Position numbers and translations under genes: made by a program
In this document: in pieces, positions 1 through 32,842 of the stretch
Position numbering within the stretch: position 1 is the stretch's first letter
Layout: every line of letters begins with the position of its first letter
The notes under the pieces: model-generated
The model's database searches: none
What the model saw: only the letters and a program-made list of their open reading frames with translations
Told to the model about the DNA's origin: nothing
Virus record (IMG/VR): IMGVR_UViG_3300030103_000679
Coordinates: 1 to 32,842 of that record
DNA: 32,842 bases
DNA from: a virus
Strand: one strand, 5' to 3'

Positions 1-99
1 TACTTCTCAAGTATGTTAGCAAGCGGTGGAGACATCCTAAATATACCAAAAGTAGCAGAAGAAACTGCTGCGAGCAAAACAGCAGGAAGTGCTGTTACA
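1..99. repeat. Terminal overlap, left copy (circularity)
   Basis: Bases 2-99 are identical to 32745-32842. Base 1 differs (T here, G at 32744). The repeat lies inside the capsid gene and keeps its reading frame across the junction, so it is best read as the assembly overlap of a circular or circularly permuted genome and not as a biological terminal repeat. Confidence 0.9.
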
Positions 100-19014: not shown

Positions 19015-19221
19015 ATGGGCGTAGTTAGAGATTATAATGAACATTATGGAGATATGATAGACGAAAACGTAGAATATGAAATATATGTTGTTTGCATTGA
19101 TCTTTATGGAACTAATGGTAAACCTACCAAACATTTTAAAAAACATTACGATAGGTTAAGAAAAAATGAAAAGTTTAGGGATATAATAAAAGAACGACTA
19201 ATAAAGGAGATTATGCAATGA
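19015..19221 (+). CDS. Small hypothetical protein, first early gene
   Basis: A 68-residue charged protein, rich in Lys, Tyr and Asp, with a good AAGGAT ribosome site. It has an N-terminal acidic-aromatic region (YEIYVVCIDLYG) that could be a strand, and a basic C-terminal helix (YDRLRKNEKFRDIIKERL). As first gene after the divergent spacer it should be made early. ATGA overlap links it to the adenine methyltransferase gene. No family recognised. Confidence 0.6.
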   Translation: MGVVRDYNEHYGDMIDENVEYEIYVVCIDLYGTNGKPTKHFKKHYDRLRKNEKFRDIIKERLIKEIMQ

Positions 19222-19718
19222 GTGTTAATAAAGGTTTGTTTAGTTCTAATAAAGACGATTGGCGAACTCCGAAATGGTTATTTAATGCATTACACAATCA
19301 TTTTAAATTCGATTTAGATGTTTGTTCTGATGAAAAAAATGCATTATTACCTAAGTATTATACAAAAGAAAATTCTTGTTTAAATAAAAATTGGGAAACT
19401 TGTAATTTTATGAACCCCCCATATGGAAGGGAAATAAATAAATTTGTTAAAAAAGCATACGAACAATGGGGAATTAATTGCACTATTGTTGCATTATTAC
19501 CTGCAAGAACAGATACAAAATGGTTTCATAATTATATATACAATAAAGCATCAATGGTGTTCATTAAAGGCAGAATAAAATTTGAAGGTGGGGAAAAACT
19601 TGCACCTGCACCTTTTCCTAGTATGATTGTTATATGGTGGGGTATGAAAAAAATTAATGATAAAGATTTTCTTAGCGAAGAAAACATATTAAAGTTAATA
19701 AATGGAGCGAAAATATGA
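19218..19718 (+). CDS. Phage Dam-type DNA N6-adenine methyltransferase
   Basis: A 166-residue protein of the phage N-6-adenine methyltransferase (Dam) family. DDWRTPKWLFNALHNHFKFD (13-32) and LDVCSDEKNALLPKYYT follow the family opening, and NPPYG at 66-70 is the catalytic (D/N)PPY motif of amino-methyltransferases. VALLPARTDTKWFHNYI follows, also as in the family. It transfers a methyl group from S-adenosylmethionine to adenine N6, probably to shield phage DNA or time replication and packaging. Target site unknown. GGAGATTATG precedes ATG. It is separate from the 24-28 kb modification cluster. Confidence 0.88.
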   Translation: MSVNKGLFSSNKDDWRTPKWLFNALHNHFKFDLDVCSDEKNALLPKYYTKENSCLNKNWETCNFMNPPYGREINKFVKKAYEQWGINCTIVALLPARTDTKWFHNYIYNKASMVFIKGRIKFEGGEKLAPAPFPSMIVIWWGMKKINDKDFLSEENILKLINGAKI

Positions 19719-23916: not shown

Positions 23917-24153
23917 ATGGATATTGATAAACTACTTAAACAAATAGATCAAGAAACTGCTAATGCGGAAGTAGGACACGAAGCATTTAACAGGACTAAG
24001 AATATGCGAAGATTTAGTCAAGGCAGTATAGAAAATATTGTTCTTGCTGATCCAAATGGCGACGAAGAACACACACCCCCTGACGATTGGGACGCACATT
24101 CAACATTTGATGAGGAAAATTACAGCATAGAGTATGATGATGAAGATTATTGA
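23917..24153 (+). CDS. Acidic hypothetical protein, first gene of the modification unit
   Basis: A 78-residue protein, very acidic at its end (DEENYSIEYDDEDY). Residues 1-20 form a short helix and the middle is probably disordered with Pro and Gly. ATG 23917 has no ribosome site; ATG 24004, with AGGA eight bases ahead, is an alternative giving 49 residues. Its stop overlaps the ParB-like gene by 20 bases. Acid-rich phage proteins sometimes mimic DNA or bind DNA enzymes; here this is only a guess. Confidence 0.5.
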   Translation: MDIDKLLKQIDQETANAEVGHEAFNRTKNMRRFSQGSIENIVLADPNGDEEHTPPDDWDAHSTFDEENYSIEYDDEDY

Positions 24154-24733
24154 AAAAAACATTAGAGATCTTAAACAAGCAGATTACAACCCAAGACAAT
24201 TAACAGAAAAACAACATAAAGAATTAACAGACTCTTTAGAAAAGTTTGGTTTTGTTGATCCTGTGCTTGTGAATAAAAATAAAGCAAGAAAAAACATTAT
24301 TATTGGCGGACACCAAAGAGTGAAAGTTGCTACAATGTTAGGCATTGAAAAAGTACCCTGCGTAGAATTAGATCTTAACGAAGAACAAGAAAAAGAATTA
24401 AATGTCAGATTAAACAAGAACACAGGAGAGTGGGATTGGGATATGTTGGCAAACAATTTTGATACAGGCGAATTACTTGATTGGGGCTTTGTTGAACAAG
24501 AGTTAGGAGTAGACAGTGAAAGTTTGACTTTTGATGTTACAAATAATTACAATGAAACAATCGAATACCCTGAAGACGCAGAAGCAAGTCACGTACGTAT
24601 GATCCAATTATTCTTAAACGACGAAACTGAACCAGTGTTTAAGAAAATGGAATTAGAATTAAGAGAAAAGTTTGGCACAGACAACGTTACAGACACTGTG
24701 TTTAAAGCTTTGGAGTTTTTGATTAATGGCTAG
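24134..24733 (+). CDS. ParB/Srx-domain protein of the modification cluster
   Basis: A 199-residue protein with a ParB N-terminal (ParB/sulfiredoxin) domain: ADYNPRQLTEKQHKELTDSL at 16-35, then VDPVLVN and IIIGGHQRVKVATMLG at 55-70, the GGHQR being the nucleotide-binding signature. NVRLNKNTGEWDWDMLA (90-106) is the continuation seen in phage ParB-like proteins tied to DNA methylases. There is no methylase domain. In phage modification loci such proteins recur beside base-modifying enzymes and may recognise DNA, bind CTP or act as nucleases. Three successive ATGs (24134, 24137, 24140) are possible. It overlaps the dioxygenase gene by 8 bases. Confidence 0.78.
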   Translation: MMMKIIEKNIRDLKQADYNPRQLTEKQHKELTDSLEKFGFVDPVLVNKNKARKNIIIGGHQRVKVATMLGIEKVPCVELDLNEEQEKELNVRLNKNTGEWDWDMLANNFDTGELLDWGFVEQELGVDSESLTFDVTNNYNETIEYPEDAEASHVRMIQLFLNDETEPVFKKMELELREKFGTDNVTDTVFKALEFLING

Positions 24734-25607
24734 AGAAATTTATTTAGATCCTGTGTTAGATGATAAGTCAGCTGCTAAATTAGCTGGTGCATTGTTAGAC
24801 GACACAAGTTATAAGATTTTAGTAGATTATGACGCAGACGTATATGATAAAGAATCAGGCAAAGTATTAGCAAAATTTAGGAAAAATGTAATACCTGCTA
24901 ATATTGCTCAAACTGCTTATGAAAATTTAAAGGGTGCAGCGACAGCAACAAATAACAGGAACAAAGCATCAGGAACAGCTGGTAGTAAAAGATTAAAAAA
25001 AGATGGATCTGTTTCAAATACAAATGGTGCAGATCAAGTTAATAGCGGAATTATAGGATATTTTGATAGAAATGTAAGATTTCCTTATTGCAGACAAACC
25101 GCTTTTAATCAAAAAGAATTTGAGAAATTTAAAAAAGCGTATGGTATTATTAAGTTTGTAGACAATCAATATAGCGATCTTATGCCAGACGAATATCAAT
25201 TGCAACGAAAAGTAGCAGACGAAACTGCACAAGATTTTGTTATTAAAGATACTGCATTTACCACAGTCACAGTAAATAAAAATTGGCAAACAGCAGTGCA
25301 TACAGATAAAGGTGATTTTGAAAAGGGCTTTGGCAATCTTGTAGTGTTACGTGAAGGAAGATACGAAGGCGGTTATTTTGTTATTCCACAATGGGCAGTA
25401 GCATTTGATATGCAAAATTGCGATTTATTATTATGTGACGTTCATCAATGGCATGGAAACACGCCAATTACAAAGATTGACGAAAAAGCTACAAGAGTTT
25501 CTTTAGTAATGTATTATAGACAAAATATGACACACTGCGGAACAGCAACAGAAGAACAAGAAATAGCAAAACAACGTGAAATAAGATCAGGGGCAAGTAT
25601 ATATTGA
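24726..25607 (+). CDS. TET/JBP-type 2OG-Fe(II) DNA dioxygenase
   Basis: A 293-residue protein with the TET/JBP core. HTD at 192-194 gives the first two iron ligands (His192, Asp194) in TAVHTDKGDFEKGFGNLVVL; GGYFVIPQWAVAFDMQNCDL follows; DVHQWHGNTPI holds the third ligand (His240 or His243), and Arg257 in ATRVSLVMYY is the expected 2-oxoglutarate ligand. Enzymes of this family oxidise the 5-methyl of thymine or 5-methylcytosine in DNA to hydroxymethyl. The N-terminal PYCRQTAFN region (120-128) is also shared. No cytosine-5 methyltransferase or hydroxymethyl-dUMP synthase is visible, favouring thymine as substrate. Its TGA overlaps the amidotransferase ATG (TGATG). Confidence 0.8.
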   Translation: MAREIYLDPVLDDKSAAKLAGALLDDTSYKILVDYDADVYDKESGKVLAKFRKNVIPANIAQTAYENLKGAATATNNRNKASGTAGSKRLKKDGSVSNTNGADQVNSGIIGYFDRNVRFPYCRQTAFNQKEFEKFKKAYGIIKFVDNQYSDLMPDEYQLQRKVADETAQDFVIKDTAFTTVTVNKNWQTAVHTDKGDFEKGFGNLVVLREGRYEGGYFVIPQWAVAFDMQNCDLLLCDVHQWHGNTPITKIDEKATRVSLVMYYRQNMTHCGTATEEQEIAKQREIRSGASIY

Positions 25608-26221
25608 TGTGCGGAATTGTAGGATATAGTTCACAAGATCCAAAACCAAATCACTTTGCAATACTTCATAACTTAATTATTGAAAGTTCAGTACGTGGGC
25701 TACATAGTTATGGTTACAGCTTTGTTAAAGACGATAAACTTATAACAAGAAAATATCACGAATTAGACGACATTTCTTTTCCTGTGTCAGATAAAATCAT
25801 TTACCACAACAGGTATTCTACGTCAGGTGATTATAAAAATCATAAAAACAATCAGCCAATACATATAGACGATATGGCATTAGTGTTTAATGGTGTTATT
25901 GATATGAGAACAAAACACCAAATGGAAAAAGCACATAATATCACTATGGAAACTGATAATGATGGCGAAATACTAATTCAACGATGTGGAAACGATAAAG
26001 AATTAATAACAAGATTTGTAAATGACATTAAAGGAAGTTTTGCTGGTATTGTTTTAGATTCCGAGAATAAAATGTTTGTTATACGTAACAAGAAGCGACC
26101 TTGCTGGATATTTGAATATGAAAATGCAACTTTTATAGCTTCAACAAGAGATATTTTTAAAAGAGTAGACGATACTTTTGAGCCAACGCCTATTAAAGCT
26201 GGTGTGTTATATGAATTATAA
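25607..26221 (+). CDS. Stand-alone class II glutamine amidotransferase
   Basis: A 204-residue protein beginning MCGIVGY, so Cys2 becomes the N-terminal nucleophile after Met removal. ATG 25607 is chosen over an upstream TTG for that reason. Other GATase-II marks follow: VRGLHSYG (29-36), HNRYSTSG (67-74), FNGVIDM (94-100) and DGE (119-121). These domains hydrolyse glutamine and channel ammonia to a partner. No synthetase or isomerase domain is present, so the ammonia (or glutamine-derived nitrogen) acceptor must be another protein, most likely an enzyme of this cluster. It is coupled to TET/JBP (TGATG) and overlaps the GNAT gene by 11 bases. Confidence 0.82.
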   Translation: MCGIVGYSSQDPKPNHFAILHNLIIESSVRGLHSYGYSFVKDDKLITRKYHELDDISFPVSDKIIYHNRYSTSGDYKNHKNNQPIHIDDMALVFNGVIDMRTKHQMEKAHNITMETDNDGEILIQRCGNDKELITRFVNDIKGSFAGIVLDSENKMFVIRNKKRPCWIFEYENATFIASTRDIFKRVDDTFEPTPIKAGVLYEL

Positions 26222-26618
26222 ATTAGAAAGAGCTATGCGTAAAGACGCAGATCTTATTAAAGCTATACACAAACAAGACAAAGAACACATAGGATCGTTT
26301 AATTTATTTCAGGTGTGGGATAAGTATTTAACAGAAAACACGACTTATAAATTTTTAGTATGTGAAGAAAAAGGGTTTGTCAGGTATGGCTGGTCTAAAA
26401 AATATAGTTCTTGGGTAATATACGAGATCGGCGTATTAGATGAATTTAAAAAACAGGGCGTAGCGAAGTTTATTGTGGAAAACTTACCAAAACCTATGAC
26501 TTTAAAATGCAATCTTGATAATGAAGCTGGAAATAAATTTTATGAAAAGATTGGTATGACAAAAGTAGGTAAAGCACAAACAAAGAAGGGTATTCCACAA
26601 AATATTTGGCAATGGTAG
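26211..26618 (+). CDS. GNAT-family acyltransferase
   Basis: A 135-residue protein with a GNAT fold: strand VIYEIGVLDEFKKQGVAKFI (69-88) with the acyl-CoA loop KKQGVAK (80-86), and CNLDNEAGNKFYEKIGM (100-116) with the usual asparagine and the YEK..GM end. ATG 26211, overlapping the previous gene by 11 bases, is chosen; a later ATG at 26235 is possible. These enzymes move an acyl group, usually acetyl, to an amine. In phage DNA modification loci GNATs are thought to acylate an amino group on the altered base. It overlaps the next gene by 7 bases. Confidence 0.78.
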   Translation: MNYKLERAMRKDADLIKAIHKQDKEHIGSFNLFQVWDKYLTENTTYKFLVCEEKGFVRYGWSKKYSSWVIYEIGVLDEFKKQGVAKFIVENLPKPMTLKCNLDNEAGNKFYEKIGMTKVGKAQTKKGIPQNIWQW

Positions 26619-27487
26619 ATGAATTTATTGATTATCACGTTCAATCATCTAAAGCAAAAGACATTGATCCAGCCAATGATTGTTTGAGATATGTAAGTGA
26701 TAGATTTGAATTAAATATTGAACAACGTTATTGGTTAGCTTTTTTATATGCTTGTTGTTATTCAGGAACGACTGTGTATTATATTTACAATGAATTTCCT
26801 GACTTTGAAAACGTAGACGAAGGCAGATTACAACGCTGGTGGGACGCTAATAAACAAAAGACTGTGTTCCAAACAGACAGATTGAAGGTAAAATCTTTTA
26901 ATGAGTTTGTTAATATCTTCAAATCATACAAACAGCTGCTCAATGGCTTAACGCAAGAAGAATATTTTAATTCCCTGAAACAGCCGAATAGACAGATGAC
27001 TTATGACAATTGTTATCAGGATCTGATGAAAATACATTACTTTGGCAGGTTTACTATGTTTATTTACTTAGAAATGGTAAATGTTTTAACAGGGTTTGAT
27101 TTAGAGCCAACGTATTTAGACTTAAAGAATGCTGAAAGTTGTAGAAATGGTTTAGTGTATAGTTTAGAGCAATACGAATTAGATACACATGGAACAAAAA
27201 AGAAGTTAAATAAAAACCAACTTGGCTATTTACAATATCAATTTGAACTAATGAAAGAAGAAATAGAACAGCTTGATATACAGCATACAAACATTTGGAA
27301 CATTGAAACAACGCTGTGTGCTTACAAAAAGTATAAACGTGGCAAACGTTATGTTGGATATTATATAGATCGTCAGCGTAAAGAAATAGAAAAAATGCAA
27401 GATCTTGTTATAGATGGTGTCAATTGGCAAGTATTATGGGATTTTAGAAACGAAACGTATGAGAAAAAATGGTTAAACGAGTTGTAG
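26612..27487 (+). CDS. Amino acid:DNA transferase / aGPT-PPlase-like protein
   Basis: A 291-residue helical protein with the hallmarks I associate with the alpha-glutamyl/putrescinyl-thymine pyrophosphorylase and amino acid:DNA transferase clade: DPANDCLRYVSDRFELNIEQ (19-38), then RYWLAFLYACCYSG, YNEFPDFENVD (59-69), RWW (75-77), FQTDR (86-90), HYFGRFTMF (142-150) and AESCRNGL (174-181). Known or proposed members displace the phosphate group of activated 5-hydroxymethyluracil in DNA with an amino acid or amine. ATG 26612 is preferred to an upstream TTG. The kinase gene overlaps its end by 19 bases, fitting the two as consecutive steps. Family recalled, not searched. Confidence 0.65.
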   Translation: MVDEFIDYHVQSSKAKDIDPANDCLRYVSDRFELNIEQRYWLAFLYACCYSGTTVYYIYNEFPDFENVDEGRLQRWWDANKQKTVFQTDRLKVKSFNEFVNIFKSYKQLLNGLTQEEYFNSLKQPNRQMTYDNCYQDLMKIHYFGRFTMFIYLEMVNVLTGFDLEPTYLDLKNAESCRNGLVYSLEQYELDTHGTKKKLNKNQLGYLQYQFELMKEEIEQLDIQHTNIWNIETTLCAYKKYKRGKRYVGYYIDRQRKEIEKMQDLVIDGVNWQVLWDFRNETYEKKWLNEL

Positions 27488-28002
27488 CAATAGGCGGTGT
27501 TCCTTGTTCAGGAAAAACAACATTAGTAAGAGAAATACTAAACAATGTAGAAGATGAGCCTAAGTTCTTTAAATATGGGCTGTTAAGGGGCTATATCTCA
27601 GACAACGTAGCAATTTTAGGTATTTATAAGCCTGAAGATACTTTTGGCGGTACAGACAAGTTGTCTATGGCAGTTCAAAAAGATTATGAAAAGTTTTTAA
27701 AGATAACTGACTATAATGTTCTCTTTGAAGGCGACAGGCTGTTTACAGAAAAGAATTTATTACATATACACGAGAACTATGAGCAGAAGTTTATTGTTTT
27801 AGATCTTGATGAAGAAACGCTGGAACAACGACACGTAGACAGAAATGATACGCAGTCAGATCAGTTTAAGAAGTCAAGGCACACTAAAATACAAAATATA
27901 TTAAACAACACACGTTTACAACCTGATTTGGAAGTAATTCAAATAAGGGATAAACAGAAAGCAGGAATAATTGCTAAGAAAGTAATAAAGTTCCTGTTTT
28001 AA
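27469..28002 (+). CDS. P-loop kinase, likely 5-hydroxymethyl-pyrimidine DNA kinase
   Basis: A 177-residue kinase. Walker A is GVPCSGKTT (10-18), VLFEGDR (84-90) is the Walker B-like strand, and RHVDRNDTQ (121-129) looks like the arginine-bearing lid. GGTDKLSMAVQ (60-70) resembles the substrate-side segment of phage kinases linked to base hypermodification. Those enzymes phosphorylate the hydroxymethyl of 5hmU in DNA, making it a leaving group. Its position directly after the transferase-like gene fits that role. Other small-molecule or nucleotide kinases cannot be excluded from sequence alone. It ends 17 bases before the terminase-region gene. Confidence 0.7.
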   Translation: MVKRVVAIGGVPCSGKTTLVREILNNVEDEPKFFKYGLLRGYISDNVAILGIYKPEDTFGGTDKLSMAVQKDYEKFLKITDYNVLFEGDRLFTEKNLLHIHENYEQKFIVLDLDEETLEQRHVDRNDTQSDQFKKSRHTKIQNILNNTRLQPDLEVIQIRDKQKAGIIAKKVIKFLF

Positions 28003-32629: not shown

Positions 32630-32842
32630 ATGGCAGACGGAAATGTAACTCCAACAACAGCTGCAAATTTCATTCCTGAGATGTGGAGAGATGCAATTTT
32701 AGATTATGCAGAAAGACGCTTTGTCTTACGTAATCAAGTATCTGACTTCTCAAGTATGTTAGCAAGCGGTGGAGACATCCTAAATATACCAAAAGTAGCA
32801 GAAGAAACTGCTGCGAGCAAAACAGCAGGAAGTGCTGTTACA
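32630..32842 (+). CDS. Major capsid protein, 5' part (continues at base 100)
   Basis: The start of the capsid gene: ATG 32630 with AAGGGGGAA upstream, one of the best ribosome sites in the window. The 71 codons end at the window edge exactly on a codon boundary and continue at base 100 on the circle, for 290 residues in all. The N-arm NVTPTTAANFIPEMW is typical of marine phage capsid proteins of the HK97 type. It shares nine of twelve residues with the 39-aa product at 13943. Confidence 0.85.
   Translation, partial: MADGNVTPTTAANFIPEMWRDAILDYAERRFVLRNQVSDFSSMLASGGDILNIPKVAEETAASKTAGSAVT
32745..32842. repeat. Terminal overlap, right copy (circularity)
   Basis: Identical over 98 bases to 2-99. 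The preceding base is G (32744), compared with T at position 1. See the left copy for interpretation. Confidence 0.9.

Follow-up and report, generated by a model that had tools for sequence, protein, structure and literature searches.

Genome context around a phage TET/JBP dioxygenase favors thymine as the base that is hypermodified

Which base does a phage TET/JBP dioxygenase oxidize when its own genome appears to supply neither 5-methylcytosine nor hydroxymethylated nucleotides? The question arises from the window, by which we mean the whole stretch of DNA analyzed here, a virus record in IMG/VR that is 32842 bases long. A first-pass annotation had described the genome as self-closing, had found in it neither a cytosine-5 (C5) methyltransferase nor a thymidylate-synthase-like hydroxymethylase, and had concluded that the dioxygenase must act on thymine in polymer DNA or on 5-methylcytosine (5mC) made by the host. 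End-to-end comparison of the window revealed one mismatch across its 99 terminal bases. With 98 of these identical, the genome therefore closes as described, giving a unit of 32743 bp, although IMG/VR files the record as linear despite the overlap. Both absences also held up. Profiles for C5-methyltransferases (PF00145), thymidylate-synthase-like enzymes (PF00303) and ThyX (PF02511) had no match in the window and did match in control genomes. We also looked for an overlooked C5-methyltransferase in the 287 stop-to-stop frames of the circularized sequence, using C5-methyltransferase motifs and jackhmmer with four C5-methyltransferase seeds, and found none. The sole methylase motif in these frames is the NPPY of a Dam-type N6-adenine enzyme at 19218-19718. 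This Dam-family gene is matched at 91% in a close relative (L007) and is patchy in other relatives.

Among 50 window ORFs scanned, Pfam matches were to capsid, terminase, tape measure, endolysin, Dam, NinG and sigma-like families, with zero matches to DNA polymerase, primase or helicase families. Because many of the ORFs have no family match, an unrecognized replication gene is possible. The phage is presumably marine, judging from its relatives. A search with its TerL returned matches no more than 39.5% identical, among the matches listed, that were spread over many hosts, and a search of genome contigs with the TET yielded only 5 MAG loci.

The dioxygenase gene is exactly one ORF of 293 aa running from ATG to TGA, and its product matched the Tet_JBP family PF12851 with an E-value of 4.3e-26 and 91.5 bits, against a cut-off of 34.9. 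Its metal-binding residues are H192, D194 and H243, its 2-oxoglutarate (2OG) residue is R257, and D197 and R265 occupy the base-pocket positions. The HxD...H triad and the 2OG arginine align with those of TET2, and all four residues are invariant in 40/40 aligned relatives. An AlphaFold model (pLDDT 88.8, pTM 0.85) was most similar to TET2 (Z 21.2, rmsd 3.4 over 258 residues), followed by NgTet1 (Z 19.6), CMD1 (18.6) and CcTet (18.1). These four proteins filled ranks 1-16, with Z-scores of 17.7-21.2, and the first other family was AlkB-like at Z 13.9. CMD1 and NgTet1, proven 5mC enzymes, share the fold, metal residues and 2OG arginine with the window protein at 14-17% identity. The ORF is a genuine TET/JBP dioxygenase. 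A TET family carries the label queuine tRNA-ribosyltransferase in PHROG 6059, a misleading public name that PF12851 contradicts.

The TET gene is the second of six in a cassette that spans 24134 to 28002 with overlapping gene ends, just upstream of the terminase. The order is ParB, TET, class II glutamine amidotransferase, GNAT, ADDT and P-loop kinase (Table 1), and the ParB gene overlaps that of the TET by 8 bases.

Table 1 Features of the window discussed in the text
Feature	Position	Strand	Evidence
Terminal overlap, left copy	1..99	.	98/99 bases identical to 32744-32842; circular closure
ParB N-terminal domain protein	24134..24733	+	PF02195 1.9e-9
TET/JBP 2OG-Fe(II) dioxygenase	24726..25607	+	PF12851, catalytic residues, model fold
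Stand-alone class II glutamine amidotransferase	25604..26221	+	GATase_7 2.2e-10, GATase_6 3.9e-9
GNAT acyltransferase, start codon uncertain	26178..26618	+	Acetyltransf_10 8.6e-7
ADDT/AADT family amino acid:DNA transferase, DNA-glycosylase-like helical fold	26606..27487	+	PF18724 8.5e-20
P-loop kinase, predicted 5-hydroxymethyl-pyrimidine DNA kinase	27469..28002	+	AAA_18 4e-6, Ploopntkinase3 7e-4, both below cut-off
Terminal overlap, right copy	32744..32842	.	Circular closure

The amidotransferase would have an N-terminal Cys nucleophile if translation begins at the ATG at 25607, and this Met-Cys start is kept in 85/87 ORFs, the remaining two beginning within the domain. The fifth gene had initially been called aGPT-PPlase-like. 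Its match to PF18724 is above cut-off and that to aGPT-PPlase3 is weak and below it, and we have corrected the name to ADDT. The top PDB match of its model (pLDDT 94.5) was PUGT, the 5-phosphomethyl-deoxyuridine (5-PmdU) glycinyltransferase gp46 of phage PaMx11 (8z2m; Z 19.2 over 252 residues, 15% identity). The matches behind it scored lower, Z 10.1 for a queuine salvage enzyme and about 9 for DNA glycosylases. PUGT was recovered by fold comparison only: phmmer searches of the PDB with a single TET and a single ADDT sequence found nothing, an ADDT profile gave chance matches only and a kinase profile gave generic P-loop matches only. The likeness to PUGT is the strongest single pointer to 5-hydroxymethyluracil (5hmU) chemistry, though a fold does not prove the base. 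The window kinase, whose own Pfam score is below cut-off, is tied to the PF18751 family by jackhmmer: searches started from it and from the kinase of Rhodococcus phage Tonitrus, which matches PF18751 at 3.6e-50, gathered 105 ORFs each. PHROG 800 labels this kinase family terminase small subunit, another misleading public name.

We then assessed how consistently these genes occur together. IMG/VR scans returned 26 loci with the TET query and 80 with the ADDT query. Among 84 non-duplicate ADDT loci, 38 were well covered, with at least 2.5 kb upstream and at least 1.5 kb downstream; the other 46 had short flanks and were excluded from the count. All 38 well-covered loci contain a TET, 37 an amidotransferase, 37 a ParB, 30 a homolog of the window kinase and 25 a GNAT. 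The eight loci among the full 84 in which TET is absent all have less than 1.2 kb upstream of the ADDT. The eight well-covered loci without the kinase homolog form a second clade with distant TETs, and in the two that we read (L077 and L098) a different P-loop ORF lies between ParB and amidotransferase. Across the records assembled as TET-bearing, the tally of 49/49 is partly a product of selection, many having been retrieved via TET, and PF12851 is above cut-off in 45 of them. A variant cassette (L015, 8818-11717) consists of TET, a divergent ADDT, a 262-aa ORF that weakly matches an NAD(P)-binding Rossmann family, and the kinase. Neither amidotransferase nor GNAT was detected in it, as if the tailoring step varies. 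In Pelagibacter phage HTVC112P (L002, 6973-9195), ParB and TET are followed by an FkbM-type methyltransferase in place of ADDT, and the TET is annotated as a DnaJ or SNF2 protein.

The distribution of TET among ADDT phages speaks to the origin of the hydroxymethyl group. M6, ViI and phiW-14 are believed to build 5-hydroxymethyl-dU (5hmdU) into their DNA during replication and to phosphorylate it afterwards (PMC6449724), and the first-pass annotation had set the window apart from phages that make 5hmdU at the nucleotide level. We sampled eight cultured ADDT phages without TET: Salmonella phage ViI, Pseudomonas phage M6, Vibrio phages 207E48.1, 1.244.A and D506, Lysinibacillus phage LysYB1, Aeromonas phage phiA8-29 and Dickeya phage LIMEstone1. 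For ViI and M6 the ADDT assignment comes from a Pfam profile, for five others from tblastn matches and for LIMEstone1 only from the count of Dickeya tblastn matches. PF00303 was present in 8/8 and PF12851 in 0/8; in the Tet_JBP scan of six of the eight the control genomes gave no match, but the same profile matched in other scans. Conversely, PF00303 was found in 0/49 TET-bearing records, and Tonitrus and Gordonia phage LittleMunchkin have ADDT and TET without PF00303 or PF00145. The contrast thus stands on both sides, with a single exception among the TET phages, Caulobacter phage Cr30 (L004), in which ADDT, TET and thymidylate synthase occur together. Cr30 also has a kinase homolog; its genes are dispersed rather than in one operon, and its thymidylate synthase is full. 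TET therefore seems to replace the dUMP hydroxymethylase, supplying the 5-hydroxymethyl group and making 5hmU in polymer DNA.

Phage TETs encoded beside a C5-methyltransferase provided a second comparison. Methylophilales phage Melnitz has, in a row, a C5-methyltransferase, a TET, a 427-aa protein and a kinase of the window-kinase family. Among 71 IMG/VR relatives of the Melnitz TET, a C5-methyltransferase is present in 65, a kinase homolog in 27 and an ADDT in none. The 427-aa protein (L107, 6269-7552), which lies between TET and kinase and has no Pfam match, could serve as the transferase in a cytosine counterpart of the pathway. In BirdsNest, the kinase family is present and neither TET nor ADDT was detected. 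We had considered the kinase as evidence for thymine and rejected it, as the family also adjoins C5-methyltransferases in Melnitz and its relatives. In the initial argument that the co-located kinase and aGPT-PPlase-like families favor thymine, the kinase accordingly does not discriminate. Because the 5mC clade has the kinase in 27/71 and ADDT in 0/71, it is ADDT that marks the non-5mC systems. There are exceptions among the relatives: a C5-methyltransferase-like gene occurs in 3/49 records, plus L079.

In a tree of the TETs, those linked to C5-methyltransferases form one clade (support 100/99). ADDT-linked TETs are scattered over both halves and require at least five label changes, indicating that the TET-ADDT pairing is recurrent. 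We restricted our use of the tree to these two points, as the C5-methyltransferase clade and the actinophage group meet through long branches. ADDT counts in the tree are lowered because LittleMunchkin, which has ADDT, was removed at the 75% identity filter and its relatives are labeled 'other'.

The base pocket tells a different story from the genome context. The first-pass annotation had suggested comparing it with JBP and TET enzymes, and on the TET side we compared it with TET2, NgTet1, CMD1 and CcTet. D197, three residues after the metal Asp, is equivalent to TET2 Asn1387, NgTet1 Asp234 and CMD1 Asp350, residues that touch the N4 of 5mC, and R265, eight residues after the 2OG Arg, to TET2 His1904, NgTet1 His297, CMD1 Arg418 and CcTet Arg393 (PMC4224472, PMC11040006, PMC7854593). 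In both positions the window thus matches CMD1 (Asp350/Arg418), a 5mC enzyme. NgTet1, with Asp at the position of D197, has some activity on thymine. In docking described by the CMD1 authors, thymine made no favorable bond through O4 and was disfavored. We rejected R265 as a thymine-specific contact: the equivalent Arg in CMD1 and CcTet touches O2, which is common to T and C, so this residue is neutral. N6-methyladenine (6mA) was likewise rejected as the substrate, since the window TET has D197 whereas CcTet uses Gly at the HxD+3 position; that Gly admits 6mA, with which Asp or Asn at this position clashes (PMC11040006).

The pocket pair is D/R in 49/49 members of the window clade, mostly D/D in the C5-methyltransferase clade, and N/L in the second ADDT clade (22/22) and the actinophage group (11/11). 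Sorted by pocket, with contexts limited by locus ends, the 57 D/R rows comprise 47 with ADDT only, 2 with ADDT and C5-methyltransferase and 8 with neither; the 67 rows that pair D with Asp, Gly or a gap comprise 63 with C5-methyltransferase and 4 with neither; the 38 N/L rows comprise 27 with ADDT and 11 with neither; and the one N/R row has neither. Residue 265 thus splits the contexts, Arg or Leu occurring with ADDT and mostly Asp with C5-methyltransferase. The window pocket itself leans toward cytosine, or is neutral, and the genome context leans toward thymine. We give context the greater weight because a cytosine-only TET would have little to do without phage-made 5mC, and because ADDT would then be without its known kind of substrate.

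We conclude that the cassette probably makes hypermodified thymine on replicated phage DNA, a reading to which we assign a probability of about 0.68. Thymine is the best reading of the two that had been offered, favored rather than proven, and the original 'must' was too strong. The data show which genes are present, in what order, how they are conserved, how they fold and how TET is swapped across phages; from these we infer the chemistry as follows. TET would flip thymine from duplex DNA and hydroxylate its methyl group to give 5hmU; the P-loop kinase, by its family, would phosphorylate the hydroxymethyl group to 5-phosphomethyl-dU; and ADDT, for which family and fold are established, would swap the phosphate for an amine. 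The nucleophile in this last step could be an amino acid, or ammonia that the stand-alone class II amidotransferase frees from glutamine; that the glutaminase domain stands alone suggests ammonia. Where present, GNAT would acylate the new amine, and ParB may bind DNA or NTP and so direct or regulate the cassette. TET would stand in for both the thymidylate-synthase-like dUMP hydroxymethylase and the phage DNA polymerase of ViI- and M6-type phages, an arrangement that suits a 32.7-kb phage with no recognizable polymerase. The complete finished-DNA route, from 5hmU through kinase activation and ammonia-dependent formation of 5-aminomethyluracil to GNAT acylation, with TET having ousted the hydroxymethylase that works on nucleotides from small marine phages without a recognizable polymerase, is a tentative proposal and less likely than not to hold in full.

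The pocket raises the alternative that TET oxidizes host-made 5mC, and that kinase and ADDT then decorate 5-hydroxymethylcytosine at few sites. Two 5mC enzymes share window pocket residues, CMD1 both and NgTet1 the Asp (Asp234), and the kinase family works in phages with their own C5-methyltransferase. We nevertheless consider host 5mC an unlikely substrate: the TETs that evidently use 5mC have an adjoining phage C5-methyltransferase (65/71), which the window group lacks in all but a few records; that clade is devoid of ADDT (0/71), and the window ADDT has its nearest fold in a 5-PmdU enzyme; and host 5mC would presumably offer few sites. Somewhat less likely still is that TET acts on thymine at few sites, leaving a regulatory or base-J-like mark, with the other cassette genes serving some further step, for example repair or discrimination, rather than hypermodification across the whole genome. 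The ParB-domain partner could target such sites, and TET occurs without ADDT in HTVC112P, P12024L and L025-L027, with a TET-associated glycosyltransferase instead of ADDT in P12024L. Against this, TET is tightly co-conserved, with overlapping genes, alongside kinase and ADDT. In Nonlabens phage P12024L (L001, 16409-18674), TET is followed by the glycosyltransferase (PF20691, 4e-21) and an N6/N4 methylase, and neither PF00145 nor PF00303 had a match in the genome; this cultured phage may thus have a system for glycosylated thymine that resembles base J.

Hydroxylation of a free nucleotide or of RNA, rather than DNA, is very improbable. Some phage homologs are labeled queuine tRNA-ribosyltransferase and the ADDT model also resembles the queuine salvage enzyme (Z 10.1), but the former is a PHROG or annotator label that PF12851 contradicts. 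The folds nearest the TET model are those of DNA-acting TETs (Z 17.7-21.2 versus 13.9 for AlkB-type proteins), and among the 50 window ORFs Pfam revealed no phage polymerase family that could use an altered dNTP.

The ParB-TET-pyrophosphorylase-kinase architecture has precedent in actinophage operons already in print. Genes for ParB, TET/JBP, pyrophosphorylase and kinase are given as a modification set in Gordonia phage CaiB, citing Iyer 2013 (PMC9302106), and in Tonitrus (PMC11955845). As in the window, ParB comes first in these operons, followed by TET, an ADDT-family transferase and a P-loop kinase. They belong to phages with other hosts and larger genomes, their TETs have N/L rather than D/R in the pocket, and the cassettes of Tonitrus and LittleMunchkin as annotated are without the class II amidotransferase and GNAT, both of which are extra in the window. 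ViI and M6, with their thymidine hypermodification pathway, share with the window an ADDT-family transferase and, going by family, a predicted kinase step, but encode a thymidylate-synthase-like enzyme and lack TET, the reverse of the window. Melnitz-type TETs share the fold family and, in some loci, the kinase, and differ in C5-methyltransferase, ADDT and pocket, as set out above. New here are a cassette that also includes amidotransferase and GNAT, the exchange of TET for a thymidylate-synthase-like gene, the finding that ADDT and C5-methyltransferase fall almost exclusively into separate clades, and the caution that the pocket imposes on the thymine reading. A TET-started thymine route has long been suspected from phage genomes; as far as our literature search reached, we found neither chemical proof of it nor a report of a phage TET acting on thymine.

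If the thymine reading is true, phage TET-type enzymes can start the hypermodification of thymine, beyond that of cytosine, and phage DNA chemistry would be tied to the base-J pathway of kinetoplastids. The same reading would account for how heavily altered bases could arise in a phage without a recognizable polymerase. Because a thymidylate-synthase-like enzyme and TET are swapped before the same transferase, the question is testable in cultured phages.
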